Source: Caulobacter segnis ATCC 21756
Lineage (GTDB): Bacteria; Pseudomonadota; Alphaproteobacteria; Caulobacterales; Caulobacteraceae
NCBI RefSeq assembly: GCF_000092285.1
Contig: NC_014100.1
Location: 1,984,001 to 2,048,000 of the forward strand
Length of the DNA: 64,000 bases
Direction: 5' to 3'
The notes beneath the pieces are model-generated. The model searched no databases. It was not told the DNA's origin and worked only from the letters and a program-made list of their open reading frames with translations. Position numbers and translations under genes: made by a program. Of the stretch, positions 46,266 through 61,170 are shown one piece after another. The number at the start of each line of letters is the position of its first letter. Position 1 is the stretch's first letter.

Positions 46266-48383
46266 CTAAAGCCAGGAATAGATCGCGCGAGGAATGTAGA
46301 AACCGCGCTTGTTCAGGATCGCGCCGGTGACGTCGCCGGCGGCGCCTTCGATGCGCTCGATCATGTTCCGCGCCACCGCCGCGCGGGTCGCCTCGGCCTC
46401 GATCACGACGAGGTTCATGTCGACGAGCGGCGCGAAGATCAGGCTCGCCGAGGACCGCTCCAGCGCCGGGCAGTCGACCAGCACCACGTCGTAGTTTCGG
46501 CGCGCCTCGCGGAAGAAGGTCTCCCACTCGGTTTCGCTCAGCGCGTGCGAGCCCGCGCCCATCGGCAGGGTGATATGGAGGCTCGTGCCTTTCACGCCGA
46601 TACGGTCGGCCGAGACGCGCGAGAGCTTGGCGCCGCTCTCCGCGAAGGCCTGGATGGCGGAGTCCTCCACCGTCGGTTCGATGTCGACGAACAGCACGCG
46701 CTTGGCGTTGGCCGTGGCCGCCATCATGGCCAGGTCCATCAGGAGGCTCGAGACGCCTTCGCCACCATTGGCGGCGACCAATTGCATGACGCGACCTGGA
46801 CCGGGCGCGACGCTTGTGAGGAGCCGTAGCAGCAGCTTGGCGTCGTCATAGCCCAGGAACGACGCGCGACTGACGGAGCCAGGCTGTCCGCGCCGTCGAG
46901 CGGCGACCTTGTCGTCGGCTGACACGGTCAGGACGACCGGGACGTCAAGCTTCTGCTCCACATCCCGGGGCGTGATCATCACGTCCGAGAAGGCGGACGA
47001 GATGACGATCACCGCGACCGCCGTGGCCACGCCGAGGGCCAGGCCGGCCAGGAGCAGAACCATGCGCCCGCTCGACCCCTTCACGGGCGGATCGGCGGCC
47101 TGGACGATGCGGACATTCGCCTTCGCCTTGGACAGAGTGTTCGCCAAGCCCGTGTCCTGGGCCCGTTTGGCCAGTTCGCCAAAGCCGTCCTCGAGCATGC
47201 TCCGCTGGCGCATTAGCTCGCGATACTCCGGCCCGATCTGGACCAACTCGGCGAGGCGGGTCGTGACGGCCTGGAGATCGCGGGCGGCCTGTCCGCGCGC
47301 GAGACGCAGACCCGTCAGGTCTCCGACGCTGTCGGCCAGCTCCGTATCGAGCTGCTGATGGACCGGATTGACGCCGCGTCGCACCGCTACGACCTGCTGT
47401 TGCGGCGCGGCGCGGATCTGCGCCTGCACCTCGGCGATCTTCCGGTCGAGATCGACGATCAGCGGATAACCTTCGACGTAACGCGCCGCGGCTTGGCGGC
47501 GCTGGTTCTGCAGGTCGAGCAGCGTGCGGGTTAGGTCGTCCAGTTGCTGCGAGCGGCCCTTGTCGTTGGAGATCTCCACCTCGGGCGGCGCTGACTTGAG
47601 CCACTTGGACAGAACCGACACGCGGCCGCTTCGGGCCGCGAGCTGCTGGTCCAGAACCTGGATCTGGCTGGCGAGCGAGGCCTGTTGCGTCTGCACCGTC
47701 GTCAGTTCGGTCGGATAGTCTCCGAAGCCGTGATCGACGGAGAAGCGCAGCAGCTTCTCCTCGACCTGCTCCAGGCGCTTGTTCAGCTGGTCACGCTGGG
47801 CGTTCACCAAGGACGGATCGGCTTGTTCGAAGATCAGCCGCCGGCGCTCGATATAGAGTTTCACCAAGGTGTTGAGCAGGTCGGCGGCCACCTGCGGATC
47901 TGCGCTTTGGAGGCTGATCTCGATGACGTTCGACTGCGGGATATTGACGATGTCGAGGTCTTTGGACAGCTGATCGGCCGCCTTGTCCAAGCCCTTGGGC
48001 TCGTTGGCCAAGGAGGGATAGGCGCGGGCCAGGCCGATCTTGCGGATCGCCTGGATCCGCAATTCCTTGGCCGACAGGATTTGAATCTCGGCCTGCACGA
48101 TCTGGGCGCGGTCAAAGCTGAGGCCCTGGGCCCCGCCGCTCAGATCGCTGCGGAAGACGTAGTCGTCGCCGAGCAGGATCAGCAGGCGTGACTGAGCCGT
48201 GTAGATCGGATGGGCCATGAAGATGGCGATCACGGCCAACGCGACCGGGATCAAGAAGCCAAGCAGGGCCTCGACCCGATAGTAGAACACGGGCGTGAGC
48301 AATTCGCGCACCGTCAGGGGCGAGCGAATGCGTCCTTGCCCCCCTCGGGCGTACGCGCCTTGCTCTATCGCCGCGGTGTTCAT
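46266..48383 (-). CDS. Wzc/GumC-like chain-length protein with degenerate tyrosine-kinase domain
   Basis: 705 residues from ATG 48383 (an in-frame TTG at 48401 is possible). A Wzz domain (about 20-110, first helix ALLGFLIPVALAVIAIFMA) precedes long coiled coils (about 180-420) and a second helix near 450, then a BY-kinase-like cytoplasmic domain. Walker A should read GxxGxGK(S/T) but here is ANGGEGVSSL (538-547), without the lysine. Walker A' VLFVDIEP (563-570) and Walker B VVLVDCP (633-639) are recognisable, although A' lacks the usual second Asp. The C-terminus has no tyrosine cluster. It is divergent from the wza-like lipoprotein gene. It probably controls chain length and links polymerase to export, without autokinase activity. 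Confidence 0.9.
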   Translation of the reverse strand: MNTAAIEQGAYARGGQGRIRSPLTVRELLTPVFYYRVEALLGFLIPVALAVIAIFMAHPIYTAQSRLLILLGDDYVFRSDLSGGAQGLSFDRAQIVQAEIQILSAKELRIQAIRKIGLARAYPSLANEPKGLDKAADQLSKDLDIVNIPQSNVIEISLQSADPQVAADLLNTLVKLYIERRRLIFEQADPSLVNAQRDQLNKRLEQVEEKLLRFSVDHGFGDYPTELTTVQTQQASLASQIQVLDQQLAARSGRVSVLSKWLKSAPPEVEISNDKGRSQQLDDLTRTLLDLQNQRRQAAARYVEGYPLIVDLDRKIAEVQAQIRAAPQQQVVAVRRGVNPVHQQLDTELADSVGDLTGLRLARGQAARDLQAVTTRLAELVQIGPEYRELMRQRSMLEDGFGELAKRAQDTGLANTLSKAKANVRIVQAADPPVKGSSGRMVLLLAGLALGVATAVAVIVISSAFSDVMITPRDVEQKLDVPVVLTVSADDKVAARRRGQPGSVSRASFLGYDDAKLLLRLLTSVAPGPGRVMQLVAANGGEGVSSLLMDLAMMAATANAKRVLFVDIEPTVEDSAIQAFAESGAKLSRVSADRIGVKGTSLHITLPMGAGSHALSETEWETFFREARRNYDVVLVDCPALERSSASLIFAPLVDMNLVVIEAEATRAAVARNMIERIEGAAGDVTGAILNKRGFYIPRAIYSWL

Positions 48384-48498
48384 TGTTGCGGAGGGCTTCA
48401 ACTCTGCGACCGCGTAAGCGCGCCGTTAGTTTGGTCGATAACGGCGCAGGACTTAATAAACACTGACATGATCGCGCGGGAGACGGATCATCCGGCCG

Positions 48499-48521
48499 AA
48501 AACGACCCGTTTTGAGCAAAA
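48499..48521. promoter_or_regulatory. Overlapping palindromes in the divergent wzc-like/wza-like promoter
   Basis: AAAACG-ACC-CGTTTT (48499-48513) is a perfect inverted repeat, and TTTTG-AG-CAAAA (48510-48521) is a second one sharing its right end. They lie in the middle of the 278-base divergent spacer, in an otherwise GC-rich setting. This is consistent with a binding site governing both export genes. Confidence 0.45.
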
Positions 48522-48661
48522 TCGTTGTTATGCAAGAGCTTCCAATACATGCGGCGCCGCCATTTGCCGCAAGCTCTGAGGAGGGCGGCAACCAAATCCT
48601 AACGCCCTTCCGCCACTTACGTTTACCAAGGCCGCGCCGTTGCGCGACTAAGGAGGTTGGT

Positions 48662-49381
48662 TTGTCCGCCTGGCTGCGTGTCTTCTCGCTTTCCGTCGCC
48701 TTGGCGGCCGCCGGCTGCGCCGCGACGCCCGCGCCGAACCAGCGTGACATGGCGGGCGGCGGGGGGGCGACTTTCGCCTCCTGGACCAGCGAGGACTATC
48801 GCTATCGCATCGGCCCGGGCGACGAGCTTTCCGTCCGGTTCGTTATCAATCCGGATCTCAATGCGACCGTGGTCGTCGGGCCTGACGGTCGCGGCGTCTT
48901 TCCCCTGATCAGCGCTCAAGACGTCGCCGGACTGACAGCCGAAGAGGCCAACGCCCTGCTGAGCCGCGCTTACGCGACCGTGCTGCGCGCGCCCCAGGTC
49001 GAGACGTTGGTGGCCGGCTACGGCGCCTCTCAGATCTATGTGGGCGGCGAGGTGCGCGATGCGGGCGTCAAGACGATCAAGGGACGCCTGACGGTGGCCC
49101 AGGCCGTCATGTCAGCCGGTGGTTTCCAAGAGACCGCGCGCACGGGGCGCGTGGTGGTCATCCGGCAGCGGCCGGGCGACCCTCGGCTGCTGATGCGGAC
49201 CATCGACGTTCGCGACAATCTGAACGGCAGAGGCGGGGACGACTTCGCCGTCCTGCCGGGCGACCTGATTTTCGTGCCGCGCAGCGCGATCACCGAGGTC
49301 AATCGTTTCGTGCGTCAGTACGTGACCGGCGTCTTGCCGTTCAATTTCAACTACAGCATCAACCGCGGTACCCGCTACTAG
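48662..49381 (+). CDS. Outer-membrane polysaccharide export lipoprotein, Wza/HfsD type
   Basis: 239 residues from TTG 48662, chosen because AAGGAGG lies five bases upstream and because this start gives a proper lipoprotein signal ending in the lipobox LAAAGC. The open frame from 48512 has no such properties. The Poly_export domain opens with DYRYRIGPGDELSVRF and continues to about residue 130; the SLBB segment has IYVGGEVRDAGVKTIKG and LTVAQAVMSAGG. FAVLPGDLIFVPRS closes the second SLBB-like part. Wza-family octamers form the export portal. It is divergent from the wzc-like gene and precedes the flippase, as in Caulobacterales capsule and holdfast loci. Confidence 0.93.
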   Translation: MSAWLRVFSLSVALAAAGCAATPAPNQRDMAGGGGATFASWTSEDYRYRIGPGDELSVRFVINPDLNATVVVGPDGRGVFPLISAQDVAGLTAEEANALLSRAYATVLRAPQVETLVAGYGASQIYVGGEVRDAGVKTIKGRLTVAQAVMSAGGFQETARTGRVVVIRQRPGDPRLLMRTIDVRDNLNGRGGDDFAVLPGDLIFVPRSAITEVNRFVRQYVTGVLPFNFNYSINRGTRY

Positions 49382-49405
49382 CCTGACGGCGCGCCGAGGA
49401 GACGG

Positions 49406-50656
49406 ATGTCCCGCTATCTGATCTCCGCTGTGGAGCAGGCCCTTTGGTCTTTGCTCAATTTCGGCGTCAATCTGCTGTTGATCCGCTTCGTCGCGCCCGA
49501 CCAGTACGGCGCGTTCGTGTTCTGGGCGTCCTGCGGCTTCGTGCTGTCCAGTCTGCAGAACGCCCTGACCGTATGCCATCTGCAGGCGTTGGCGCCGGGC
49601 GGGGGGCTGGATCCCAAGCGGTTGCCCGTCGAGCGTCTGATGCACGGCGTCAACGCCATCTTTCTCCTGGTCGCGGCCTTGGCGTGCTTGGTCGGCGCCG
49701 TGGCGTGGCGGAGCGTCGACAGTCCATACGGCGCGCTGGCGGCCACCTTGTTCGTGCCAGCCTTTCTGTTGCAGCAATATCTGCGGGCGTTGGCGTTCTC
49801 GCGTGGACGTGCGGACGTGGCGACGGGGCAGACCGCTGGAGTCTTCGCCCTTGTGGCGCTCCTGCTGGGCGAAGCTCTGCTTCGGGGCGGAAAGCTCGAC
49901 GCCGACGGCGTCCTCTGGCGCTTGGGCGTCGCCTACGGCTTGACCGGCGCCCTTGGCGCGGTCTGGGCCTTGCGGGGGCAGGGCGGCCGACTTCGCCGCT
50001 ACGAGCTCAAGGCCTATGGCGACTATGTTCGGCAGTCCGGCTGGGTGTTCCTGGGGGTCTCGAGCACCGAACTTCTGACCCGGTTCTACGTGTTCGTCGT
50101 GGCGGGCTGGTTCGGCGCGGCGGCTCTGGCGGCCTTGTCGGCGACCCAGCAGCTGTTGCGGCCCGTCCCGCTGCTGGCGATGTCCTGGAGCATGGTGGCC
50201 CGCAACGATCTGGCTCGCCGCCGAGATCATGAGGCGTGGAGCGACTTCGTCCGGATCCTGGCGGTGGCGATGGGCGGCGGGCTGGTGGTCGCCGCGGCGT
50301 GGACCCTGATCCTGCACCTGGCCTGGCCGGCGATCGCCACGCACCTGTTCGCAGGCAAGTATCTGACCGACCGCTGGATGGTCGCTCTGTGGGGGCTGAG
50401 CGCGGCCTTCACCCTGGGGCAAACAGTGGTGAGCACCGGTCTCCAGGTGCTGCGAGCCTTCAAGCCTTTGGCGCTGGCCAACGGGGCGGCCTCCTTGGTG
50501 GCGGCCGGTGGAATCCTGCTGGTCATGCGCGGCCTTGGACCAGCCGGCGCCATCGTCGGGACGGCTGCGGGTCAGTTGCTGGAGCTGGCGGCCATGACCG
50601 CCATCCTGATGTCGATCACCGCGGCGAGACGGCGATCGGCGCCGCGCGAGGCCTAG
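49406..50656 (+). CDS. Oligosaccharide flippase, Wzx/MATE-like
   Basis: 416 residues, very hydrophobic, with about 12 helices. It opens SRYLISAVEQALWSLLNFGV and has LIRFVAPDQYGAFVFWASCG, as in polysaccharide biosynthesis (Wzx) proteins. Charged residues are concentrated in short loops, and the middle segment RYELKAYGDYVRQSGWVFLG fits the family mid-point. Wzx flips undecaprenyl-linked repeat units to the periplasmic face. It follows the wza-like gene by 24 bases. Its 3' end overlaps the convergent ligase/polymerase gene by 41 bases. Confidence 0.88.
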   Translation: MSRYLISAVEQALWSLLNFGVNLLLIRFVAPDQYGAFVFWASCGFVLSSLQNALTVCHLQALAPGGGLDPKRLPVERLMHGVNAIFLLVAALACLVGAVAWRSVDSPYGALAATLFVPAFLLQQYLRALAFSRGRADVATGQTAGVFALVALLLGEALLRGGKLDADGVLWRLGVAYGLTGALGAVWALRGQGGRLRRYELKAYGDYVRQSGWVFLGVSSTELLTRFYVFVVAGWFGAAALAALSATQQLLRPVPLLAMSWSMVARNDLARRRDHEAWSDFVRILAVAMGGGLVVAAAWTLILHLAWPAIATHLFAGKYLTDRWMVALWGLSAAFTLGQTVVSTGLQVLRAFKPLALANGAASLVAAGGILLVMRGLGPAGAIVGTAAGQLLELAAMTAILMSITAARRRSAPREA

Positions 50657-52040
50657 GGGCGCGCGCCGCTCGTTCCGGGGGCGGCGCATGTCGCATGTCG
50701 ATGTCGACGCCAAACAGCAGGATCAAGATCCCCAGCATGGCGTTGGCCGAGAAGTAGCTGCTCTCCATGAAATTGTGCACGAAGAAGATCATGGGGAAGA
50801 CGCCCAGGAAGAGCGCGTGAGGCAGGGCGTCACGATATTCGGCGGTCGGATTTCTGAGGCTTTGGCGAATGAGGCCAAGTCCGCGGGCTATCCACCGGAG
50901 CAATAGAAGGAGCGCTCCGACCAGCCCTGGAGCGCCCACCGTGACCAACAGGTCGATGTAGCCGTTGTGGGATTGGTTGGTGTGGGTCTCGGCCGCGAAC
51001 CAGAGGTCGGTCTGCAAGCTCGGTTGCACGGCGGGGTTCACGTCCCAGAAGGAGCCGAAACCTTGGCCTCTCATCGGATGTTCGACGAATTGGTTGAGGG
51101 CGAACATCCAGACCTCGGTGCGGCGCGTGAAGTTCACGCTGCGGAGCGGCGCCATCGGGTCCTGTCCGATGGCGTAGCTCCAGGCGAGCCACCCAAATCC
51201 CATCGCAAGGAGAGCCGCCACGCCGAACGCCGCCGCCGCCCAGATCGCGCCGGCCCGCAGGCGCAGGCAAGCCAGTAAAAGGGGCGTCGCGGCCAACGCC
51301 GACAGAGCGATGGCCAGGCTGGTCTTCGACTTGCTGGCGATCAGCAGCGCCAGACAGCCGGCGAACATCGCGCCCCAGAAGAGGCGCGTCTTCAGTGTCT
51401 CGCCAAACAGGATGTAGGGCGTGATCACCAGCGAGCTCAGCAGCATCACCGAGCCCAGAGTGTTCTTGTGATTATGAATGGCCGCCAGGCCGATGTCGGT
51501 CATCGACAGGCCGGGTAGGGCGATCCAAGAGATAAGATCGATGACGATCATGATGGCGCAGGCGGTCGCGAGAGCCGCATGCATGCGCCGAGGCTCGCGG
51601 AGGCCCGCCACCAGGGCGATGCTGACCACCACATTGATCAAATAGAGAATGAAACGGCGGTTCGAGACTGTCGGATCGATGGCCCAGCGCGTTGTGGCGC
51701 CGAACCAGACGAACAGCAGGAGCAGCGGCCAGACCCGAAGGCTAAGAGCCAGCACCTCGCTGCGTCGGAACCACATGATCGGCAGGGTCAATCCCAGCAC
51801 GCCCAGCCAGATCATTCGGTTGAGCGGCGACATCGGCGAAGCGCCCGACAGCGCATCGACCGTGACCTCGTGAGTATAGGGCGCGACACCGATCATCATG
51901 TAGAGCAGCATCAGGACCAGCACGAAGCCCGACCATCGCGAGAGACGGTCATTCAGGCGCGCCGACGCGGCCGCGCGTTCTTCGCGGCGCAGAGCGCGCC
52001 AGGCCTCGAGCGTGGCGCCGGCGCGTCGCTCTTCAGCCAT
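50616..52040 (-). CDS. O-antigen ligase/polymerase family (Wzy-like) membrane protein
   Basis: 474 residues from ATG 52040. About 11-12 helices are seen, with a large periplasmic loop (about 310-370) containing RTEVWMFALNQFVEHPMRGQ, GFGSFWDV and ETHTNQSHNGYIDLLVTVG. The Wzy_C/WaaL family marks are the Arg of this loop and the His of SHN-Y. In a Wzx/Wzy locus it polymerises lipid-linked repeat units, although ligase function cannot be excluded. It overlaps the wecG-like gene by eight bases (ATGGCTGA), so the two are coupled. Confidence 0.9.
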   Translation of the reverse strand: MAEERRAGATLEAWRALRREERAAASARLNDRLSRWSGFVLVLMLLYMMIGVAPYTHEVTVDALSGASPMSPLNRMIWLGVLGLTLPIMWFRRSEVLALSLRVWPLLLLFVWFGATTRWAIDPTVSNRRFILYLINVVVSIALVAGLREPRRMHAALATACAIMIVIDLISWIALPGLSMTDIGLAAIHNHKNTLGSVMLLSSLVITPYILFGETLKTRLFWGAMFAGCLALLIASKSKTSLAIALSALAATPLLLACLRLRAGAIWAAAAFGVAALLAMGFGWLAWSYAIGQDPMAPLRSVNFTRRTEVWMFALNQFVEHPMRGQGFGSFWDVNPAVQPSLQTDLWFAAETHTNQSHNGYIDLLVTVGAPGLVGALLLLLRWIARGLGLIRQSLRNPTAEYRDALPHALFLGVFPMIFFVHNFMESSYFSANAMLGILILLFGVDIDMRHAPPPERAARAPRPRAAPIAVSPR

Positions 52041-52842
52041 GGGCGTTTGCGCTTCCCAACCCAAGCCATCGGGCCAGGACATCCCGCAGTCCCAGCGCCA
52101 AGCCATAGAAGCCGCGCATATAGCGACGCCAGAGCCTGCGAGGCTCCTTGACCAGGCGGTAGAGCCACACGAAGCCCGAATGCTCCAGAACAGCGGGCGC
52201 GGGATCGGAATCGCCCGTCAGAACGTGCAACGAACTGCCGATGCAAAGACCCAGGCCCGTGCTGCGGCCGTCGGCGATGATGTGGCCGCACAGAAGCTCC
52301 GACTGGGGCGGCCCCATGGCGACGAAGATGAAGCGGGCGGGATTTGCGACGATGAAGGCGACCGTTTCGGCGATCGCGGCCGGATTGTGGATCATGCCCA
52401 TCGGGGGCACGTGCTGGACAAGGTTCTTCAGGCCGTACTGCTGGCGCAGTTTGTCGGCCAGGGCCGGAGTGCCGCCGATCACGGAAAGCGGGGTGTCGGG
52501 GCCTATGACCCGCTCGAACAGCTCGCGGACCACATAGGCGCCCGGCGCGAAGCGCAGGCGAAGGCCGCCAAGCAGAGCGGTTCGGCCCACGACACGGCTG
52601 TCGTTGGTGCTGATCCAGGCGGCGTCGCTGATCGCGCGGAACCGAGGATCACGGCGCCGCAGATAGGCATGCTCGGCGTTGGGCGTGACGAAAGTCGTGA
52701 AGGGGGCTTGGGGCGACCGAGCCGCCAGGGCGTCGACGGTCTGTTCCACTGTCAGCGGCGTGAAGCGGAGGCCCGCGAAGCGCACCTCGGGCCAAGATTG
52801 GGGCGCGTCGGATACCGCCGTGGCGCTTTGGGAACCGGACAT
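52033..52842 (-). CDS. WecG/TagA/CpsF family glycosyltransferase
   Basis: 269 residues from ATG 52842; the open frame extends further but would cover the divergent gene. Family blocks are FVTPNAEHAYLRRRDPRF, AWISTNDSRVVG (the donor-binding Asp region), LSVIGGTPALADKL and FVAMGPPQSELLCG. Members (GT26) add N-acetylmannosamine-type or glucose/uronic sugars to lipid-linked intermediates, usually as the second transferase. It is divergent from the initiating transferase gene and coupled to the polymerase. In WecG proteins the C-terminal helices bind the membrane; here KEPRRLWRRYMRGFYGLALG is a similar amphipathic end. Confidence 0.92.
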   Translation of the reverse strand: MSGSQSATAVSDAPQSWPEVRFAGLRFTPLTVEQTVDALAARSPQAPFTTFVTPNAEHAYLRRRDPRFRAISDAAWISTNDSRVVGRTALLGGLRLRFAPGAYVVRELFERVIGPDTPLSVIGGTPALADKLRQQYGLKNLVQHVPPMGMIHNPAAIAETVAFIVANPARFIFVAMGPPQSELLCGHIIADGRSTGLGLCIGSSLHVLTGDSDPAPAVLEHSGFVWLYRLVKEPRRLWRRYMRGFYGLALGLRDVLARWLGLGSANAHG

Positions 52843-52892
52843 TAAGAGAGCCTGCCGCAGAGGGGCGTTATAGGAACAGCGCCGATTGGCGC

Positions 52893-52906
52893 CATACTTG
52901 AGTATG
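52893..52906. promoter_or_regulatory. Palindrome between divergent glycosyltransferase genes
   Basis: CATACTTGAGTATG is a perfect 14-base inverted repeat with arms CATACT/AGTATG and a TG centre. It sits in the middle of the 105-base divergent spacer, where a shared operator would be expected. Confidence 0.4.
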
Positions 52907-52947
52907 CGGGCTCCACCTTTACGTTCGGTTCCCGTTTTGAGGCAGTC

Positions 52948-53553
52948 TTGAAATCCGCTCACGCCATAAAGCGACTGATGGACATCGGCGTCTCCGCCGC
53001 GCTGCTGGCTCTTCTTGCGCCGCTGCTGCTGCTGGTCGCCGTTTTCGTCAAGCTGACCTCGAAGGGGCCGATCTTCTACGCCTGCCATTGGGTGGGGCAA
53101 GGCGAGCGATCCTTCACGGGATACAAGTTCCGCACGATGGTCTCCAACGCCGAGGCCATGGAGGCGGAGCTCCAGGACCGCAACGAAATGCGCGGTCCGG
53201 CCTTCAAGCTGACCAACGACCCGCGCGTCACGTCGATCGGCAAGGTGCTGCGCAAATACAGCCTGGATGAGCTGCCCCAGCTCTGGAGCGTGCTGATCGG
53301 AGATCTCAGCCTCGTAGGACCTCGCCCGCCGCGCGCTCACGAATACGCCCAGTTCACCGAGTTCCAGAAGCAGAAGCTGGCGGTCAAGCCTGGCATCACC
53401 TGTCTCTGGCAGGTCGAAGGGCGCCACCGGATCAATGACTACGACGACTGGGTCGAGCGCGATCTGGACTATATCCGTCGCTGGTCCCTGTGGCTGGACA
53501 TCCAGATCCTGGCGCGGACGGCCGTCGTCGTCTTCCGAGGGACAGGCGTCTGA
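52948..53553 (+). CDS. Initiating sugar-phosphate transferase (monotopic phosphoglycosyltransferase), PssY/HfsE-like
   Basis: 201 residues from TTG 52948; the next in-frame ATG (Met11) would cut into the membrane-inserting helix. KRLMDIGVSAALLALLAPLL is the re-entrant hydrophobic helix of monotopic transferases. It is followed by TGYKFRTM, DPRVTSIGKVLRK, YSLDELPQLW, DLSLVGPRPP and PGITCLWQVEGR. These are the Bac_transf (PF02397) signatures. Size is that of the minimal PglC/PssY type. It links the first sugar phosphate to undecaprenyl phosphate at the inner membrane. Its stop overlaps the next gene's ATG. Confidence 0.94.
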   Translation: MKSAHAIKRLMDIGVSAALLALLAPLLLLVAVFVKLTSKGPIFYACHWVGQGERSFTGYKFRTMVSNAEAMEAELQDRNEMRGPAFKLTNDPRVTSIGKVLRKYSLDELPQLWSVLIGDLSLVGPRPPRAHEYAQFTEFQKQKLAVKPGITCLWQVEGRHRINDYDDWVERDLDYIRRWSLWLDIQILARTAVVVFRGTGV

Positions 53554-54509
53554 TGTCCGATACGCCCATCGCCGTCAGCGTCGTGGTTCTGAGCTACGAC
53601 CGTGTCCACCTGCTTGAGCGGACGCTCGTCAACTGCCTCAAGCCCGATGTGTCAAACGGCGTTCCGTTCGAGATCGTCGTTGTCGACAATCATCCCGATC
53701 GTTTGGCCCAGCCGCTGGTTTCGCGTCTGGCTGAAGGCGGCGCGCCGATCCGCTACTTCGCAGACGCCCGGCGTAACGTGTCGATTGTCCGCAACGTCGG
53801 CATCAAGGCCGCCTTGGGGCGCTACGTCGCCTTTATCGACGACGACGAGGCGCCGGACGCCAACTGGCTTTCCGAGCTGCACGCCTGCCTTGAGCGCACC
53901 GGCGCCGACGCCGCGTTCGGGCCCAAGTATCCCGTGTTCGAGGCCGGGCGGCCGCCAGCCTGGGATCCCGAGGGCTGGCGCTACACGCTGGACTATCGCG
54001 AACCGGCCGACACGCCGATCCATCTGTTCGGCCGTCTCCGTAAAAAGGGTAAGGGCCTCGGCAGCGGCAACGCCGCCTTCCGCATGGCCACGTGCTTCGA
54101 TACGCCCGAGCCCTTCGCCGTCGCTTTCGGCGACGCCAATGGCGAGGACACGCATCTGCTGTTTCGCCTCGCGCTCGCGGGCAAGCGCTTCGTGTGGTGC
54201 CCGACCGCGGTGGTGCGCGAGTTTATCGAGACGGACCGGACCAAGCCCAGCTACATGATCACGCGGATGAAGCGCGGGTCGCAACACTATGCGGCCTCCC
54301 GCGTCGCCACGAGCGATCGGCCTGGCCTCACGCGGATCAAGGTGACGCTCCTGGGTTTGGCGCAGATCGCGGTGCACGCCGGCCTGTACCTGACTTCCGG
54401 CGAATGGCTGGCGGGCGATCGCTTCGATAACCGCATCGGCATGGCCAAGGGCCTGGGCAAGCTCTCCTATCGCGCGCCGATTGGCTTCATCGACGAGAAG
54501 GCCGCATGA
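53553..54509 (+). CDS. Family 2 glycosyltransferase, first of a pair
   Basis: 318 residues from ATG 53553, which shares its A with the TGA of the previous gene. GT-A features are SVVVLSYDRVHLLERTL, EIVVVDNHPD, NVSIVRNVGIKAALGRYVAF and IDDDE (DxD-type metal site). GDANGEDTHLLFRLALAGKR supplies the ED catalytic-base region. The C-terminus carries a hydrophobic membrane-association segment (LGLAQIAVHAGLYL). Donor and acceptor cannot be assigned. It overlaps the next glycosyltransferase by four bases. The two proteins share the same overall plan and probably act one after the other on the repeat unit. Confidence 0.92.
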   Translation: MSDTPIAVSVVVLSYDRVHLLERTLVNCLKPDVSNGVPFEIVVVDNHPDRLAQPLVSRLAEGGAPIRYFADARRNVSIVRNVGIKAALGRYVAFIDDDEAPDANWLSELHACLERTGADAAFGPKYPVFEAGRPPAWDPEGWRYTLDYREPADTPIHLFGRLRKKGKGLGSGNAAFRMATCFDTPEPFAVAFGDANGEDTHLLFRLALAGKRFVWCPTAVVREFIETDRTKPSYMITRMKRGSQHYAASRVATSDRPGLTRIKVTLLGLAQIAVHAGLYLTSGEWLAGDRFDNRIGMAKGLGKLSYRAPIGFIDEKAA

Positions 54510-55465
54510 CGGACCTCTCGATCGTCATTTGCACCTATGATCGACCGGTCTCGCTCGAGGCGACCCTGAGATCGTGTCTTGAACAGACCAATGCGCTGGG
54601 CCTGTCGATCGAGATCGTCGTTGTCGACAATCACCCTAGCGGCAGCGCGCGGTCGGTCGTCGAGACGCTGTCGCGCGAGGCTCGCTGGCCGCTGCGCTAC
54701 GTCACCGAGCTGACGCGCAACATGTCGACGCTGCGCAATCGCGGTTTCGCGGAGGCGCGGGGGCGTCTGGCCGCCTTGATCGACGATGACGAGGTCGCGT
54801 CGCCCGATTGGCTGGACCAACTGGTGGGGGCCTTACGTACGGCCGACGCCGACATGGCCGTTGGGCCGCGCCAGGCCGTGTTCGCCGGAGAGCCGCCGGC
54901 CTATGATCCGACAGGATCGCAGTTCGTCAGGATTTTCGACCTTCCCGACGGCGCGATCATTCCGCTGACGGAGCCGTCCGGCAAGCCGCGCTACGGCATG
55001 GGCACCGGCAACTCGCTCTTCGACCTCTCACGCTGCTTTCCCAACGGCGAGCCGGCGATGCGCGAGGCGTTCGGCGACGCGGGCGGGGAAGACGCCGAGC
55101 TCTTCATTCGCCTTTTCCGTCAAGGTCGCAGGATTGTCTGGGCGCCTCGTGCGGTGGTGACCGAGACGGTCGCGCCGCATCGGACGGCTGTGACATATCG
55201 TCTCATCCGCGTCCGCCGTGAGGCTCAGCATTACGTGTCGATCTACCTCGACGCGACTCCGCGTCCTCGGCTGATCTGGGCGACGCTGATGGCCAAGGGG
55301 CTGGTTCAAGTGGTTGTCGGATTTGTCTTATCCGCCGCTACTTTCGAGTTTGGCTCTAAGCAGCGAATGCGCGGGCGCGCGATGATCGAACATGGCCTGG
55401 GCAAGCTCCTATGGAAGCGCGCCGTAGGCTACATCGCCGAGCCTTCGCTCAACAGGGCAACCTGA
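54506..55465 (+). CDS. Family 2 glycosyltransferase, second of a pair
   Basis: 319 residues; its ATG overlaps the previous TGA (ATGA). It has SIVICTYDRPVSLEATL, EIVVVDNHPS, MSTLRNRGFAEARGRLAAL and IDDDEVASPDW, then GDAGGEDAELFIRLFRQGRR. It is a paralogue of the gene before it, with the same GT-A fold, ED motif and C-terminal hydrophobic segment (GLVQVVVGFVLSA). Duplication with separate acceptor specificities is likely. A 90-base gap separates it from the heptose module, so that module may have its own promoter. Confidence 0.92.
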   Translation: MTDLSIVICTYDRPVSLEATLRSCLEQTNALGLSIEIVVVDNHPSGSARSVVETLSREARWPLRYVTELTRNMSTLRNRGFAEARGRLAALIDDDEVASPDWLDQLVGALRTADADMAVGPRQAVFAGEPPAYDPTGSQFVRIFDLPDGAIIPLTEPSGKPRYGMGTGNSLFDLSRCFPNGEPAMREAFGDAGGEDAELFIRLFRQGRRIVWAPRAVVTETVAPHRTAVTYRLIRVRREAQHYVSIYLDATPRPRLIWATLMAKGLVQVVVGFVLSAATFEFGSKQRMRGRAMIEHGLGKLLWKRAVGYIAEPSLNRAT

Positions 55466-55555
55466 TCTCAACCAACTTGACCGCAATTCCGCTAACACCG
55501 GGCACGGCGCAGGGCGCGCGCCGTCCTATTCTGAACTTGGGGGCACCAGAAAAGC

Positions 55556-56302
55556 ATGCTGCATCGTCTTTCCACTCATGAAGCCCTGTCCGCGGATCTC
55601 ACGGCGCAGATCAAGCTCTTCGCTGATGGCGCCAGCCTCGAGGACTTCACGCGCCTGCACCAGACTGGACAGGTGGCGGGTTTCACCACCAACCCGACCC
55701 TGATGCGCAAGGCCGGCGTCACCGACTACGAAGGTTTCGCCAAGGCGCTGCTGGAGCGCATTCCCGACGCGCCGATCTCCTTCGAGGTCTTCTCGGACGA
55801 GTTCGATGACATGACGCGTCAGGCGCGAAAGATCGCGGCCTGGGGCTCCAACGTCTACGTCAAGGTTCCGATCACCAACACGCGGCGCGAGAGCAGCCTG
55901 CCGATGGTTCGAGTGTTGGCGGGCGAGGGCGTGAAGGTGAATGTCACCGCCATTCTGACCCTGGAGCAGGTGGCCGAGACGGTCGACGCGCTCCATGCCG
56001 ACGTTCCGGCCGTGGTTTCGGTTTTCGCAGGGCGTATCGCTGACACCGGCGTTGATCCCATGCCGGTCATGCGCGCCGCCGTGGCCATGGCCGCCCGCAA
56101 GCCCAAGGCCGAGGTGTTGTGGGCCAGCGTGCGCGAGGTGTTGAATGTTTATCAGGCCCGCGACTGCGGCTGCCACATCGTGACGTCGACGCCCGAGGTG
56201 CTGAAGAAGCTCTCCATGGCCGGAAAGGACCTGGCGGACCTGTCGCAAGAGACGGTGGCCATGTTCTATGAAGACGCCAGCGCGGCCGGCTTCAAGCTTT
56301 GA
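55556..56302 (+). CDS. Transaldolase-family protein (TalC/FSA-like) in the heptose module
   Basis: 248 residues. AGFTTNPTLMRKAGVTDYEG is the transaldolase N-terminal block, and SNVYVKVPITN carries Lys103, the expected Schiff-base lysine. NVTAILTLEQV, VSVFAGRIADTG and EVLWASVREVLNVYQA match the TIM barrel of the short TalC/F6P-aldolase group. Transaldolases exchange a dihydroxyacetone unit and can form or consume sedoheptulose 7-phosphate. It overlaps the HAD phosphatase gene by four bases (TTGA), so it is coupled to the heptose genes. A role in supplying sedoheptulose 7-phosphate is inference; FSA-type aldolase activity is an alternative. Confidence 0.9.
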   Translation: MLHRLSTHEALSADLTAQIKLFADGASLEDFTRLHQTGQVAGFTTNPTLMRKAGVTDYEGFAKALLERIPDAPISFEVFSDEFDDMTRQARKIAAWGSNVYVKVPITNTRRESSLPMVRVLAGEGVKVNVTAILTLEQVAETVDALHADVPAVVSVFAGRIADTGVDPMPVMRAAVAMAARKPKAEVLWASVREVLNVYQARDCGCHIVTSTPEVLKKLSMAGKDLADLSQETVAMFYEDASAAGFKL

Positions 56303-56844
56303 ACGCTTCTGAGCGGCTACGCCCCGCGGTCTTTCTGGATCGCGACGGCGTGCTGAACCGCATCGTCCTGCGCGAGGGCAAGGCTGCCTCGCCGCGCGCC
56401 GTCGACGAGCTCGAGATCGAACCCGATGCTCCTTCAACGCTCGCGGCGTTGAAGGCGGCTGGTTATCTGCTGCTCGTCGTCACCAATCAACCTGACGTCC
56501 GCCGGGGGCTGATGAGCGTGGAAACGCTCGAAGCGCTGCATGCCCGGTTGGCCGACGCGCTCCCGCTGGACGAGATCGCGGCGTGCATGCACGACAACGC
56601 CGACGGGTGCGCCTGCCGCAAGCCCAAGCCAGGTCTAGTTTTGGACCTCGCCGAACGTCATGGCGTCGATCTCGGCCGGTCTTGGCTCATCGGCGATCAG
56701 GATCGCGACGTAGCTTGTGGCAAGGCCGCCGGCTGCAGCACAATACTACTTGGACGCGACTACAATTCGGGTACAGATACTGCCGCCGACCAAGTCGTGG
56801 AAACACTCTCGCAATCGCTTGCCTATATTCTAAGGGCGATATAA
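56299..56844 (+). CDS. gmhB: HAD-IIIA phosphatase, GmhB type (D-glycero-D-manno-heptose 1,7-bisphosphate phosphatase)
   Basis: 181 residues from TTG 56299, overlapping the transaldolase stop. VFLDRDGVLNRIV holds the HAD nucleophile Asp14 and Asp16. VTNQPDVRRG is motif II. CMHDNADGCACRKPKPG has the GmhB zinc set Cys96-His98-Cys104-Cys106 and the conserved Lys. IGDQDRDVACGKAAGC is motif III/IV. GmhB removes the 7-phosphate of the heptose bisphosphate made by HddA/HldE-type kinases. The last 90 or so bases are AT-richer than the rest of the module, and a TATAAT hexamer covers its stop codon. Confidence 0.93.
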   Translation: MNASERLRPAVFLDRDGVLNRIVLREGKAASPRAVDELEIEPDAPSTLAALKAAGYLLLVVTNQPDVRRGLMSVETLEALHARLADALPLDEIAACMHDNADGCACRKPKPGLVLDLAERHGVDLGRSWLIGDQDRDVACGKAAGCSTILLGRDYNSGTDTAADQVVETLSQSLAYILRAI

Positions 56845-56845
56845 T
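56819..56845 (+). promoter_or_regulatory. Candidate promoter inside the heptose module
   Basis: TTGCCT (56819-56824) and a perfect TATAAT (56840-56845) are separated by 15 bases, short of the best 17, at the AT-rich end of gmhB. Transcription would start some 15 bases before the gmhA-like ATG, where TTGGGGG could serve as ribosome site. It could allow gmhA-like to hddC to be expressed separately. Confidence 0.35.
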
Positions 56846-56866
56846 AGCGTTGCTTGGGGGTTTACT

Positions 56867-57490
56867 ATGTTTTCTGACCACTTTCTTGATGCGACGACGC
56901 GCGCCGTCTCCGCGATTGACCGCGACGCCATTGAGGCCGTGGCGAAGACTCTGGCGCGGGTTCGGGATGGCGGCGGACGCCTGTTCCTGCTCGGCGTCGG
57001 CGGCAGCGCGGGCCACGCCAGCCACGCGACCAACGACTTCCGCAAGATCTGCGGTTTCGAGGCCTATTGCCCGACCGACAACGTCTCGGAGCTGACCGCC
57101 CGCATCAATGACGAGGGCTGGGAGGGCGTGTTCTCGACGTGGCTCGAGAGCAGCCGCCTGACCGCCAAGGATGGCCTGCTGATCTTCTCGGTCGGTGGCG
57201 GCAGCCTAGAGCCGCCGGTCAGCGCCAACTTGGTGCGCGCCATGCAATACGCCAAGGAGAAGGGCGCCGCGGTCACGGGCATCGTTGGTCGCGACGGCGG
57301 GTTCACGGCCAGGGTCGCCGACGCATGCGTGGTCGTTCCGACGGTCGATCCGCAACTGATCACGCCGATCGTCGAGGGCCTCGCCGCGGTCGTTTGGCAC
57401 CTGCTGGTCTCGCACCCGGCGCTTTCGCGGTCCAAGGGGCACTGGGAGCAGATCGCACCCGCTCCCGCCGTCGCGGTCGCCGCCGAATAA
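56867..57490 (+). CDS. SIS-domain isomerase, GmhA-like (phosphoheptose isomerase family)
   Basis: 207 residues. LFLLGVGGSAGHASHATNDF (40-59) is the SIS phosphosugar loop. ELTARINDEGWEGVFSTWL and LLIFSVGGGSLEPPVSANL are further SIS blocks. GmhA turns sedoheptulose 7-phosphate into D-glycero-D-manno-heptose 7-phosphate. By eye the protein departs from classical GmhA at its active site: the catalytic Glu after the loop is Asp57, and the downstream catalytic His region reads LITPIVEGLAAVVWHLL with no His at the expected place. It is therefore a variant GmhA or an isomerase on another ketose phosphate. It lies four bases before the first GHMP kinase. Confidence 0.88.
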   Translation: MFSDHFLDATTRAVSAIDRDAIEAVAKTLARVRDGGGRLFLLGVGGSAGHASHATNDFRKICGFEAYCPTDNVSELTARINDEGWEGVFSTWLESSRLTAKDGLLIFSVGGGSLEPPVSANLVRAMQYAKEKGAAVTGIVGRDGGFTARVADACVVVPTVDPQLITPIVEGLAAVVWHLLVSHPALSRSKGHWEQIAPAPAVAVAAE

Positions 57491-57493
57491 CCG

Positions 57494-58498
57494 ATGATCT
57501 CCACTCGTACGCCCTTGCGCGTGACCCTCGGCGGCGGGGGCACGGACCTGGAGAGCTATTACCGACGCGATGGCGGCTTCATCTTCGCCATGGCCTTGGA
57601 CAAGTACATCCATATCAGCGCGCATCGCCCGGCCTTCCATGACCACGTGGCCCTGATGGGCCCCGATCCCGAGAACGTCGCCCGGACCACGGACCTCAAG
57701 CACGAACTGGTCCGCGCGGCGCTTCTGCGCCACGGGATCGACACCGGTTTCGAGGCGGCGTCCATCGGCGACATCGTCGGCGGTACGGGCCTGGGATCGT
57801 CCAGCTGCTTCCTGGTCGGCTTCCTTCGCGCCTTGCATGCGCTGAAGGGCGCCGAGCCTGACCGGCAGGCCCTCGCCGAAGAAGCGTGCGATCTGGAGAT
57901 CAACGTCCTGGCCAAGGGCATCGGCAAGCAGGACCAGTACATGGCCGCGTTCGGCGGCCTGACGACCCTGGACATCGCTCCGGACGGAAAGGTGCGGGTC
58001 GGCTCGGTGGCGTTGGACCCCGAGGTCGAGGCGGCGTTCATCGCCCACACCCACATCTACTATACCGGCCTGCGACGCGATGCGGCGGTGATCCTGGACG
58101 ACCAGAACAGCGCCATGCTGAGCGACGGCGACCGGCGACGCCAGGCCGCCCAGAGTCTCGGCGCCATCAAGGATCTCGGCTACCGCATTCGCGACGCTTG
58201 GATCGCCGGCGATCTGGAAGGCTGGGGCCGGATGCTCCACGAGCACTGGGTCAGCAAGAAGCAGCTGTCGTCGAAGATCAGCTGGCCGCACATCGATCAG
58301 TTGTACGATCATGTGCGGGCCAATCTCGGCGTGACGGGCGGCAAGGTGATCGGCGCTGGCGGCGGCGGTTTCCTGATGCTGTTCACGCCGAACGAGGGCC
58401 GCGAGCTCGAAGACTACATGGCGTCGCAGAACATGCCGCGCCTGCGCTACGGCATCGATCGTGGCGGGACCCAGGTGCTGCTGAGCCAAGCCGCATGA
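57494..58498 (+). CDS. GHMP kinase, HddA-like, first copy
   Basis: 334 residues. STRTPLRVTLGGGGTDLESY opens the protein, as in D-glycero-alpha-D-manno-heptose 7-phosphate kinases, followed by GGFIFAMALDKYIHIS. The ATP loop is GGTGLGSSSCFLVGFL (motif 2), then KQDQYMAAFGGL and VIGAGGGGFLMLF (motif 3). HddA adds the 1-phosphate to heptose 7-phosphate. It overlaps the next GHMP kinase gene by four bases (ATGA). Having two such kinases is unusual; this one has the longer Gly run in motif 1. Confidence 0.9.
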   Translation: MISTRTPLRVTLGGGGTDLESYYRRDGGFIFAMALDKYIHISAHRPAFHDHVALMGPDPENVARTTDLKHELVRAALLRHGIDTGFEAASIGDIVGGTGLGSSSCFLVGFLRALHALKGAEPDRQALAEEACDLEINVLAKGIGKQDQYMAAFGGLTTLDIAPDGKVRVGSVALDPEVEAAFIAHTHIYYTGLRRDAAVILDDQNSAMLSDGDRRRQAAQSLGAIKDLGYRIRDAWIAGDLEGWGRMLHEHWVSKKQLSSKISWPHIDQLYDHVRANLGVTGGKVIGAGGGGFLMLFTPNEGRELEDYMASQNMPRLRYGIDRGGTQVLLSQAA

Positions 58499-59586
58499 AC
58501 GCCTGGCGCGCGGAAGCTCTCGGGGGCGTCCAGCGAGCGCGGACGAGCAGCGGGTTCGACGTTCGCGCCCGCGCGCCTCTGCGCCTGGGACTGGCGGGCG
58601 GCGGCACCGATCTGTCGCCTTACTGCGACCAGTTCGGCGGCGCGGTCTTGAATGTCACCATCGATCGCTTCGCCTTCGCCCATATAACGCCCAGCGCTGA
58701 TGGGGCGGTGTCCTTTAGGGCCAACGACCTTGGCGTGCAGGAGCATCATGAACTCGGCGCGCGTCCCCGGATCGACGAAGGGCTTAGTCTACACCGGGCC
58801 GTCTACGACCATGTGGTGGAGACCTATCTGGACGGCGCCGCCCCGGCGCTGAACGTCTCCACGACGATCGACGCTCCGGCCGGGTCGGGGCTGGGCTCTT
58901 CCTCGGCTTTGGTCGTGGCGCTGGTGGAGGCGTTCCGTCTGGCGCTGGATCTTCCGTTGGGTCCCGCCGATGTGGCTCGTCTGGCGTTCCATATCGAGCG
59001 TCGCAAGCTCGGCCTCGCCGGAGGGCGTCAGGACCAGTACGCGGCGGCTTTCGGCGGCGTGAACTTCATCGAGTTCCTGCCCGAGGACAAGGTGCTGGTC
59101 AGCCCTCTGCGGGTGCCGCGCGCCTATCTGAACGAGTTCGAGTCTTCGCTGGTGATCTGCTTCACCGGCCAGTCGCGCCGCTCCGAGACGATCATCAAGG
59201 AGCAGATCGACGGTCTGGTGGGCATGAACGCCGAGACGCTCGAAAGCATGCATCAGCTCAAGGCCGATGCGGCCTTGATGCGCGAAGCCCTGCTGCGCGG
59301 CGACATGCGCGACATGGCCGCCATCCTGATGCGGTCGTGGAGCGCCAAGAAGCGTACCGCTAGCGGCGTGGCCACCGACACGGTCGATCGCCTGTTCGAT
59401 CTGGCGATCGCCGAGGGCGCCTGGGGCGGCAAGGTGTCCGGCGCCGGCGGCGGCGGGTTCCTGATGTTCTTCACCGATCCCGAGAACCGCCACCACCTGA
59501 TTTCGACCCTCAATCGGGCGGGGGGGCAGGCGAGTTCGGTCAAGGTCACCTTCGAAGGCGCGGAAGCCTGGAGCGTGCCCCGGTGA
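58495..59586 (+). CDS. hddA: GHMP kinase, HddA-like, second copy
   Basis: 363 residues from ATG 58495; upstream open frame overlaps copy 1 and is not coding. RARAPLRLGLAGGGTDLSPY followed by GGAVLNVTIDRFAFAHI is the standard HddA start. DAPAGSGLGSSSALVVALVE is the ATP loop, GGRQDQYAAAFGG and VSGAGGGGFLMFF are motif 3. An extra 30-residue leader precedes the kinase fold. It is only distantly similar to copy 1, so they are not a recent duplication. It could be the true heptose kinase, with copy 1 acting on another sugar phosphate, or the reverse. Its stop overlaps the GTG of the nucleotidyltransferase. Confidence 0.9.
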   Translation: MNAWRAEALGGVQRARTSSGFDVRARAPLRLGLAGGGTDLSPYCDQFGGAVLNVTIDRFAFAHITPSADGAVSFRANDLGVQEHHELGARPRIDEGLSLHRAVYDHVVETYLDGAAPALNVSTTIDAPAGSGLGSSSALVVALVEAFRLALDLPLGPADVARLAFHIERRKLGLAGGRQDQYAAAFGGVNFIEFLPEDKVLVSPLRVPRAYLNEFESSLVICFTGQSRRSETIIKEQIDGLVGMNAETLESMHQLKADAALMREALLRGDMRDMAAILMRSWSAKKRTASGVATDTVDRLFDLAIAEGAWGGKVSGAGGGGFLMFFTDPENRHHLISTLNRAGGQASSVKVTFEGAEAWSVPR

Positions 59587-60278
59587 GCGTTCGCCAGTGC
59601 GTGTTCCTTGTCGGTGGCCTGGGCACGCGCTTGGGCGACATCGCCCGCGACACGCCCAAGCCGATGCTCCCGGTGTCGGGGCGTCCCTTCATCGAGCATC
59701 TGCTCGCGAAGGCCGCGCTGAACGGTTTCGATCGGGCGTTGCTCTTGGCTGGACATCGAGCCGAAGTGGTCAAGCGGCACATCGAGGCCACGAACCTAGA
59801 CGCCCGTCTGGGCATGGAGATCGCGGTGTCGGTCGAGCCCGAGCCGATGGGCACCGGCGGCGCCTTGAGCCACGCCCATGATCTTCTCGAAGACGCCTTC
59901 CTGCTGCTGAATGGCGACACCTGGTTCGACTTCGACTGGCGCGCCTTGGCCGATCGCGAGGGCTACGCCGGCATGATGGCGCTGCGCATGGTCGAGCCGG
60001 CGGATCGCTACGAGACCGTGGCGCTGGACGGCGATCGTGTCGTGGACATCCGCGCGCGTGACCCCAGTCTGAGCAAGGGGCTGATCAACGGCGGCGTTTG
60101 CCGCCTCGCCAAGGCGGCCGTTCCAAGGACCGACCGCGCCTTCTCGCTTGAGGCTGAATTGCTTCCGGCGCTCTGTCGGGATGGCGCGCTGGGCGGCCGG
60201 GTCTTCGAAGGCGCTTTCGTCGACATTGGCCTGCCCGCCAGCCTCGCCGCCGCCGAGCGGATCCTGGCTTCGGCCTAG
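59583..60278 (+). CDS. hddC: Sugar nucleotidyltransferase, HddC-like (GDP-heptose pyrophosphorylase)
   Basis: 231 residues from GTG 59583 (GTGA overlap). FLVGGLGTRLGDIARDTPKP is the nucleotidyltransferase signature loop. GHRAEVVKRHIEA, EPEPMGTGGALSHAHDLLED and LLLNGDTWFDFDW carry the base- and metal-binding residues. The length and the INGGVCRLAKAAV and FVDIGLPASLAAAERIL end match HddC, which transfers GMP to D-glycero-alpha-D-manno-heptose 1-phosphate. It closes the heptose module. The nucleotide (GTP, or CTP/UTP) cannot be settled by sight. Confidence 0.88.
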   Translation: MSVRQCVFLVGGLGTRLGDIARDTPKPMLPVSGRPFIEHLLAKAALNGFDRALLLAGHRAEVVKRHIEATNLDARLGMEIAVSVEPEPMGTGGALSHAHDLLEDAFLLLNGDTWFDFDWRALADREGYAGMMALRMVEPADRYETVALDGDRVVDIRARDPSLSKGLINGGVCRLAKAAVPRTDRAFSLEAELLPALCRDGALGGRVFEGAFVDIGLPASLAAAERILASA

Positions 60279-60405: not shown

Positions 60406-61170
60406 ATGTCGATCAAACCCATTGACCTCAGCCGTGTGCGTGACCTGCCGTTGCTGGCTTCCGCCAGCGAAGAGTCCCTTTCCCTGATCGGGCAGGGCGG
60501 GTTCCTGCAGTGGACTCCCAAAGGCGCCGAGCTGGTGGCCGAGGGTGAGGTCAACGACTTTCTCTATATACTGCTCGACGGCTCCGTTGAGTTGGAGGGG
60601 ACCTGGGGCGATCGAGACTCGACCCTGGCGGTGCTGAGGCCGCTTTCGAGCTTCGTCTTGGCGTCGGTCGTGCTGGAGGCGCCGGCGCTGATGACGGCGC
60701 GCACGCTTTCGCGCAGCCAGCTTTTGATGATCCCCGGCGATCTGTTCCGGCGCGTGATGCGTGAGGATCGGGGCGTGTCCCTGGCGGTGATCGAGGAGCT
60801 GTCGGGCTGTTACAGCGGCCTGGTTCGCACCATCAAGAGTCACAAGCTGCGCGCGCCGCTCGTTCGCCTTGCCAACTATCTGCTCGTGCAGCAGCAACGC
60901 CAGGGCGGCGGCGTCCTGCGATTGCCGCTGCAGAAGCGGATGCTCGCGTCCTTGCTCGGCATGACCCCCGAGAACCTGTCGCGCTCGTTCGCCGCCCTGG
61001 CCGAGTACGGCGTCAGGGTGGATGGACCGCTGGTGACTATCACGCGACCGGCGGTTCTGGCGCGCCTGGCCAAGCCGGATCCGTTGATCGACAATCCTCT
61101 GCCGGTGGCTGGAGCCATGATGGGGCAGGCGGGGCGCGAGCGCGCCGCTCATATAGAAGGCCGCGCCTGA
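60406..61170 (+). CDS. Crp/Fnr-family transcriptional regulator
   Basis: 254 residues. The N-terminal cyclic-nucleotide-binding-type barrel has VAEGEVNDFLYILLDGSVEL, LAVLRPLSSFVLASVVLEAP and LLMIPGDLFRRVM. The classical cAMP-binding Arg-Ser pair is not seen, and there is no FNR-type Cys cluster, so the signal is unclear. The HTH has LPLQKRMLASLLGMTPENLS, RSFAALAEYGVRV and DGPLVTITRP. It lies 127 bases after the heptose module and shares a start/stop base with the QueD-like gene, so those two are co-expressed. It may regulate the polysaccharide locus, but no site was found. Confidence 0.9.
   Translation: MSIKPIDLSRVRDLPLLASASEESLSLIGQGGFLQWTPKGAELVAEGEVNDFLYILLDGSVELEGTWGDRDSTLAVLRPLSSFVLASVVLEAPALMTARTLSRSQLLMIPGDLFRRVMREDRGVSLAVIEELSGCYSGLVRTIKSHKLRAPLVRLANYLLVQQQRQGGGVLRLPLQKRMLASLLGMTPENLSRSFAALAEYGVRVDGPLVTITRPAVLARLAKPDPLIDNPLPVAGAMMGQAGRERAAHIEGRA

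Follow-up and report, generated by a model that had tools for sequence, protein, structure and literature searches.

A stretch of 64,000 nucleotides from the Caulobacter segnis ATCC 21756 genome, hereafter the window (positions 1984001-2048000 of the single contig that makes up this 4.66 Mb genome), carries at 46266-60278 a surface-polysaccharide locus of the Wzx/Wzy type, in which Wzx is assigned by position. Part of this locus is a closely packed run of genes on the forward strand that very probably forms a cassette dedicated to a nucleotide-activated higher-carbon sugar, one of more than six carbons. The run consists of a dedicated transaldolase (TAL, 55556-56302), a GmhB-like HAD-IIIA sugar-bisphosphate phosphatase (HAD, 56299-56844), a SIS-fold phosphosugar isomerase (SIS, 56867-57490), two GHMP kinases (kinase 1, 57494-58498, and the HddA-like kinase 2, 58495-59586) and an HddC-like sugar-1-phosphate nucleotidyltransferase (NTase, 59583-60278), in this order. 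Four-base overlaps are found at the TAL/HAD, kinase 1/kinase 2 and kinase 2/NTase junctions, and gaps of 22 and 3 bases separate HAD from SIS and SIS from kinase 1, respectively. The original prediction for this region had placed export, polymerase and initiating-transferase genes beside such a run; all of these genes are present, and their reading frames and families, as determined by profile searches and translations, match its gene list.

The export and assembly genes precede the sugar run. A Wza-like outer-membrane polysaccharide export (OPX) protein (48512-49381, forward strand; PF02563, 62 bits, and SLBB), a Wzy-type polymerase with a Wzy_C domain (50616-52106, reverse strand; PF04932, 41.5 bits) and the initiating polyisoprenyl-phosphate sugar-phosphate transferase (52948-53553, forward strand; PF02397, 213 bits) all score above cut-off. 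The latter is short, comprises the catalytic domain only and reaches 277.5 of 295.55 bits with TIGR03025. These three components uphold the predicted Wzx/Wzy type, but the flippase (49406-50656, forward strand) is putative, being proposed from its position, a hydrophobic-looking sequence and its occurrence at the same place in relatives, with no Pfam, NCBIfam or PDB match. The Wzc-like protein (46266-48401, reverse strand) has a degenerate ATPase part and matches polysaccharide co-polymerase (PCP) models below cut-off only (TIGR03007, 106.7 bits versus a cut-off of 278.85; TIGR01005, 43 bits; Wzz PF02706, E=0.024). Its translated Walker A stretch, AANGGEGVSS, is without the usual lysine, and the protein is possibly a pseudokinase PCP. 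The remaining genes encode a WecG/TagA/CpsF glycosyltransferase (52033-52842, reverse strand; 269 amino acids from the likely start; PF03808, 79 bits) and two family 2 glycosyltransferases (GT2; 53553-54509 and 54506-55465, both forward strand; PF00535). The G+C content of the locus is inside the range of the window.

TAL belongs to the short-chain transaldolase family TIGR02134 (322.3 bits, cut-off 281.95). Compared with Escherichia coli TalB and FsaA, it has kept the Schiff-base lysine, the Glu (Gln in FsaA), the Asn, the Thr, the Ser and both Arg residues, which we take to have their usual catalytic roles. The TalB active-site residues are retained, and a Phe occupies the position of Tyr131 in FsaA. 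From these residues, TAL looks like a true transaldolase; a fructose-6-phosphate aldolase is unlikely, the residues being of the transaldolase type. One further transaldolase is encoded in the C. segnis genome, and a second transaldolase is likewise present in 9 of the 14 alphaproteobacterial genomes that bear SIS.

SIS is assigned by its sequence to a subfamily distinct from GmhA. The protein matches PF13580, and its membership of the GmhA family fails by score (TIGR00441, 52.1 bits versus a cut-off of 209.45). In alignment with E. coli GmhA, His61 is retained and an Asp is found at Glu65, the residue that we take to be catalytic, as we likewise assume the roles of the other residues compared. 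The STSGN-SAN loop of E. coli GmhA is replaced by SVGGG together with a six-residue insertion, and a PTDNVSELTAR stretch is nearly invariant among SIS relatives. In the PDB, the SIS profile finds phosphoheptose isomerases and DiaA as its relatives, and many of the listed SIS proteins carry the automatic label 'D-sedoheptulose 7-phosphate isomerase'. Of the 14 alphaproteobacterial genomes with both TAL and SIS, nine also encode a GmhA homologue of 180-195 bits, slightly below the cut-off of 209, so that SIS is an additional enzyme there; one further genome has a 119-bit relative. A phage origin of the isomerase was considered, and no match was found in the phage collection.

The other enzymes of the run resemble heptose enzymes at scores below the curated cut-offs. 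HAD exceeds the cut-off of TIGR01656 (127 bits) and falls below both GmhB cut-offs (76 of 149.6 and 114 of 178 bits); it keeps the DxD motif and the Cys/His metal motif, presumably in their usual roles. Kinase 1 (PF00288/PF08544) reaches 116 and kinase 2 reaches 334 of the 600 bits required by the HddA model, and NTase (PF00483) reaches 123 of the 300 bits of the HddC model. The predicted GmhB, HddA and HddC identities may hold for HAD, the kinases and NTase, at scores below cut-off: HddA is the best named family for both kinases, and heptose enzymes are nearest to kinase 2, HAD and NTase. SIS, by contrast, belongs to another subfamily than GmhA. A midpoint-rooted tree separates the group of kinase 1 from that of kinase 2 and places the module kinases of other phyla in between. 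Kinase 1 shares 89% identity with a protein named from Caulobacter hibisci.

Within the Caulobacteraceae, the locus shows synteny but a patchy distribution. Of 390 genomes, 31 have SIS, including 15 from the genus of the window, and in three of the 31 the match is split or contains a stop (G598, G675 and G069); kinase 1 is found at E<=1e-60 in 8 of 149 genomes. The comparison of gene order covered 25 Caulobacteraceae loci (L012-L016 and L213-L232), with L017 and L018 set aside for their other context. TAL, HAD, SIS and kinase 1 are kept in all 25, and the export genes are in the same order as far as the fetched stretch extends, with the second GT2 gene on the other strand in four loci. Conservation of the run in related genomes had been named beforehand as a check on the prediction, and the retention of both run and export order in these further loci indicates that the arrangement is more than chance. 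By comparison, kinase 2 is found in 19 of the loci, HddC in 18 and a second nucleotidyltransferase, NTase1, in 11. Kinase 1 is thus the constant member, and kinase 2 and HddC, the part most like a heptose pathway, are optional in this family. Some loci depart further: in L225, L226 and L230, TAL-HAD-SIS-kinase 1 stands with no nucleotidyltransferase nearby; L226 and L230 are also without kinase 2, which in L225 gives matches but no long reading frame. L224 and L232 stop at contig ends. A PAP2-family phosphatase gene follows kinase 1 in L016, L015 and L013, and lies between kinases 1 and 2 in L016/L080, two stretches of one contig (L080:3928-4497). On the 3' side of the C. segnis locus, an FtrB-type regulator and a QueD-like protein (60406-61679) recur only in the two closest of the 27 stretches compared (L012 and L222).

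The run extends far beyond this family. A genome scan with 13 SIS-type proteins yielded at least 565 confirmed relatives, of which the best 80 (56-92% identity) were analysed as loci; these are mostly from metagenome-assembled genomes, so that single taxon names may be wrong, and many contigs are short. They come from Pseudomonadota, Myxococcales, Acidobacteria, Verrucomicrobia, actinobacteria, Bdellovibrio, Eremiobacterota, an archaeal bin and others. With partner profiles built from alphaproteobacterial neighbourhoods, TAL was found in 68 of the 80 loci (five of them weak, <100 bits), HAD in 61, NTase in 58 and GHMP kinase in 57, and all five enzymes occur together in 37; one SIS locus (L091) is without any of these partners. 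Most partners lie within 4 kb of SIS on the same strand (TAL 66, HAD 58, NTase 48 and GHMP kinase 47). Furthermore, among the 120 proteins of 236-750 amino acids listed by a search whose length limit was set to favour longer proteins, there are natural fusions of SIS with HAD (35, one of these also with GHMP kinase), NTase (4), TAL (2) and an epimerase (1). Gene linkage and natural fusions together argue that the five enzymes form one pathway. Frequent additional genes outside the Caulobacteraceae encode an NAD-dependent epimerase (44 of 80 loci), a Gfo/Idh/MocA oxidoreductase (24) and a UDP-glucose-dehydrogenase-like enzyme (11), and short-chain dehydrogenases adjoin these extras in all three loci checked (L158, L092 and L140). 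A Lawsonia intracellularis plasmid is annotated with the same genes.

A different picture is obtained when TAL is taken as the starting point. TIGR02134 transaldolases score above cut-off in 26 of 289 genomes of the class, and 27 TAL neighbourhoods were fetched, corresponding to 25 of these 26 genomes (that of C. segnis left out) and two slightly below cut-off, some on short contigs. SIS is present in 14 of them, HAD in 13 and GHMP kinase in 2, and 15 contain a reversed HldE-like protein, in which the nucleotidyltransferase domain comes first and is followed by a PfkB kinase. In one type of alphaproteobacterial cluster (L055:6406-15743, also L051, L052, L071 and L073), TAL is accompanied by one or two SDR epimerases and the domain-reversed HldE-like protein, as well as by Gfo/Idh/MocA, nucleotide-sugar dehydrogenase, RmlD-like and methyltransferase genes, mostly SIS and HAD, and in some cases a split transketolase. 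This is an uncharacterised higher-sugar cluster. TAL alone is not diagnostic of the module, as the same family occurs in unrelated operons, such as a sugar phosphotransferase-system operon on a Lactobacillus plasmid and the vicinity of a hexitol phosphatase on a Streptomyces plasmid.

The claim that the locus holds its own supply of an activated sugar drawn from pentose-phosphate intermediates is supported by these data. In the proposed pathway, TAL would transfer a three-carbon unit from fructose-6-phosphate (or sedoheptulose-7-phosphate) onto an aldose phosphate, yielding a long ketose phosphate that SIS would convert to the aldose phosphate. A GHMP kinase would then place a phosphate on C1, HAD would remove the terminal phosphate and NTase would add the nucleotide, by analogy GMP. 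The two GT2 enzymes would incorporate the sugar into the repeat unit, to be followed by flipping, polymerisation and export. The substrates, the nucleotide, the carbon number and the polymer in this scheme are what we infer. As the acceptor of TAL, ribose-5-phosphate seems more likely, which would lead to an octose, as in the lincomycin sugar, rather than a heptose.

For the C8 product, an octose, we arrive by analogy at a probability just short of even. Sedoheptulose-7-phosphate is a common metabolite, so that heptose synthesis could do without a SIS-tied transaldolase in so many groups, whereas an octulose phosphate would need one. TAL is coupled to SIS across phyla even though sedoheptulose-7-phosphate is normally available without it, which makes the octose the likelier of the two. 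The closest parallel is found in lincomycin and celesticetin biosynthesis, where, according to the parts of the literature covered, the transaldolase LmbR couples a three-carbon unit to ribose-5-phosphate, LmbN isomerises octulose-8-phosphate, LmbK acts as phosphatase and GDP-octose is the end product (PMC4351081, PMC5854111, PMC7014725, PMC12945683). In the same partial coverage, LmbO is a confirmed guanylyltransferase and LmbP a kinase by prediction (PMC4351081, PMC12945683). All five enzyme types of that route, as far as these parts describe it, are present in the C. segnis locus, a likeness at the level of enzyme type. In addition, the epimerase, nucleotide-sugar dehydrogenase and Gfo/Idh/MocA genes of loci in other phyla are comparable by type to LmbM, LmbL and LmbZ, given the protein families that we take these to have. 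The settings differ: the locus described here is a Gram-negative polysaccharide locus instead of an antibiotic cluster, and no aminotransferase is found among the locus proteins scanned. To our knowledge, octose as a dedicated pathway is known only from the lincosamide antibiotics.

Several observations weigh against an octose. The link to C8 is drawn from enzyme types. Heptose enzymes make up the closest named families of kinase 2, HAD and NTase, although no lincosamide model was noticed among the NCBIfam matches. TIGR02134 is curated as an ordinary transaldolase, with C7 as the usual product, and its occurrence in unrelated operons limits TAL as a marker. Five of the 14 SIS-bearing genomes have no other transaldolase, and TAL may serve central metabolism there; four of the 14 have no better GmhA than SIS itself, nor does the C. 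segnis genome. In the TAL neighbourhoods, the heptose-type activator outnumbers the GHMP kinase (15 versus 2 of 27) and 13 of 27 are without SIS, a variant that speaks in part against a strict unit of five genes and in part for heptose-type chemistry. Furthermore, the fetched stretch contains no nucleotidyltransferase in 4 of the 25 Caulobacteraceae loci (L013, L225, L226 and L230).

What keeps C7 close is the identity of the named relatives, the way TIGR02134 is curated, the variant with the HldE-like protein and the genomes in which TAL is the only transaldolase. A heptose as the product is nevertheless somewhat doubtful. It would fit the TIGR02134 score above cut-off, the 334 bits of kinase 2 to HddA, the best named relatives, the phosphoheptose isomerases and DiaA among the PDB relatives of SIS, and the C. 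segnis genome, in which no GmhA-like protein other than SIS was found. The curated heptose cut-offs are missed, however, 9 of 14 genomes with SIS also encode a GmhA homologue that scores better, and TAL, which would be dispensable for sedoheptulose-7-phosphate, is present in 68 of 80 SIS loci. Moreover, the constant partner of SIS in the Caulobacteraceae is kinase 1 (25 of 25) and not the HddA-like kinase 2 (19 of 25). The known GDP-heptose route of Campylobacter jejuni comprises four enzymes and starts from sedoheptulose-7-phosphate, and its isomerase, kinase, phosphatase and guanylyltransferase agree with the locus in order and superfamilies; the main text of the part-covered source is without the word 'transaldolase' (PMC10680097). 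The locus differs in having one, in protein scores below the curated cut-offs and in an isomerase of the other subfamily. The GDP-heptose product of the original prediction is a possible one, compatible with the nearest families and the lack of another GmhA, and the transaldolase falls outside the C. jejuni route as described in the covered part of that source (PMC10680097). Between the two chain lengths, C8 is slightly ahead, on the strength of the transaldolase coupling, of an isomerase family distinct from GmhA and of the parallel with the lincosamides.

An unlikely alternative, compatible with either C8 or C7, is that two activated sugars are made: TAL, SIS, HAD and kinase 1 (with NTase1 where present) would lead to one higher sugar, and kinase 2 with the HddC-like enzyme would activate another, either a heptose or a salvaged sugar, the single nucleotidyltransferase of the C. 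segnis locus serving both. The uneven retention of kinase 1, kinase 2, HddC and NTase1 (25, 19, 18 and 11 of 25 loci) and the separate tree groups of the two kinases speak for this division. On the other hand, the C. segnis genome has no separate isomerase to feed kinase 2, and NTase1 has no close copy in it, the best match being the HddC-like gene itself (64 bits). That the locus makes holdfast or a holdfast-like adhesin, as had been suggested, is very improbable: it contains a WecG-family enzyme, as holdfast synthesis does in HfsJ according to the covered part of one source (PMC11340318), but a full HfsE (834 bits, cut-off 750) lies about 1 Mb away at C1:3027195, the initiating transferase of the locus has 104 bits to the HfsE model with no HfsE in the locus, and the locus-marking SIS gene is found in only 31 of 390 family genomes.

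Heptose genes are present elsewhere in the genome. HldE is encoded at C1:4524325-4525776 (L172:9325-10776), with 385 bits for the kinase domain and 207 bits for the second domain, and HldD at C1:2083658-2084659 (L233:1486-2487; 423 bits), adjoining KdsA. ADP-heptose for lipopolysaccharide (LPS) is therefore likely made in this organism, as judged from these sequences. The prediction that the D,D form would be used for want of an epimerase holds inside the locus only, as HldD and HldE lie outside it, and the expectation that a heptose-containing capsule or holdfast-like polymer would be unusual for Caulobacterales is weakened, since these two genes make heptose itself unsurprising in this lineage. 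HldE and HldD are present with no canonical GmhA detected as the sedoheptulose-7-phosphate isomerase for LPS heptose, and the C. vibrioides control genome likewise lacks a SIS_2 match. Elsewhere in the window, an nhaA-II RNA motif at 5042-5117 scores above the gathering score.

Related polysaccharides offer a limited comparison. The capsule of Caulobacter crescentus NA1000 is a surface capsule of the same genus with Wzx- and Wzy-type genes. Among its constituents are Fuc, Man, Gal, Glc and GalA, with neither heptose nor octose in the covered part of Table 1, in which only the listed residues were analysed (PMC4241560), and the C. vibrioides control genome yielded no SIS_2 match. The promonan pathway of Sphingomonas sp. 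LM7 is likewise an alphaproteobacterial Wzx/Wzy route with a WecG-type enzyme, and differs in that the main text, as covered, is without 'transaldolase' or 'heptose' (PMC11340318). In the parts of the literature searched, no description of a transaldolase and GmhA-like module in polysaccharide loci was found, nor a paper with both 'Caulobacter' and 'octose'.

Taken together, the best explanation of the locus as a whole, which we consider evenly balanced between right and wrong, is a non-holdfast Wzx/Wzy locus with a dedicated route to an activated sugar of more than six carbons, an octose being likelier than a heptose. It may be, although we propose this more tentatively, that many phyla share a widespread, hitherto unrecognised pathway of five enzymes that supplies nucleotide-activated octoses to surface glycans, with the Caulobacteraceae locus as one instance. 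In that case, the lincosamide antibiotics would draw on one branch of a shared route to envelope sugars. If the module does make octoses, this class of sugar would count among the general components of bacterial surfaces, and the label 'D-sedoheptulose 7-phosphate isomerase' on many proteins would be wrong. A heptose product would instead mean that, besides the GmhA route, there is a second one that begins with a transaldolase and has an isomerase family of its own. In both cases, the five linked genes, fused in some instances, offer a pathway open to direct test.

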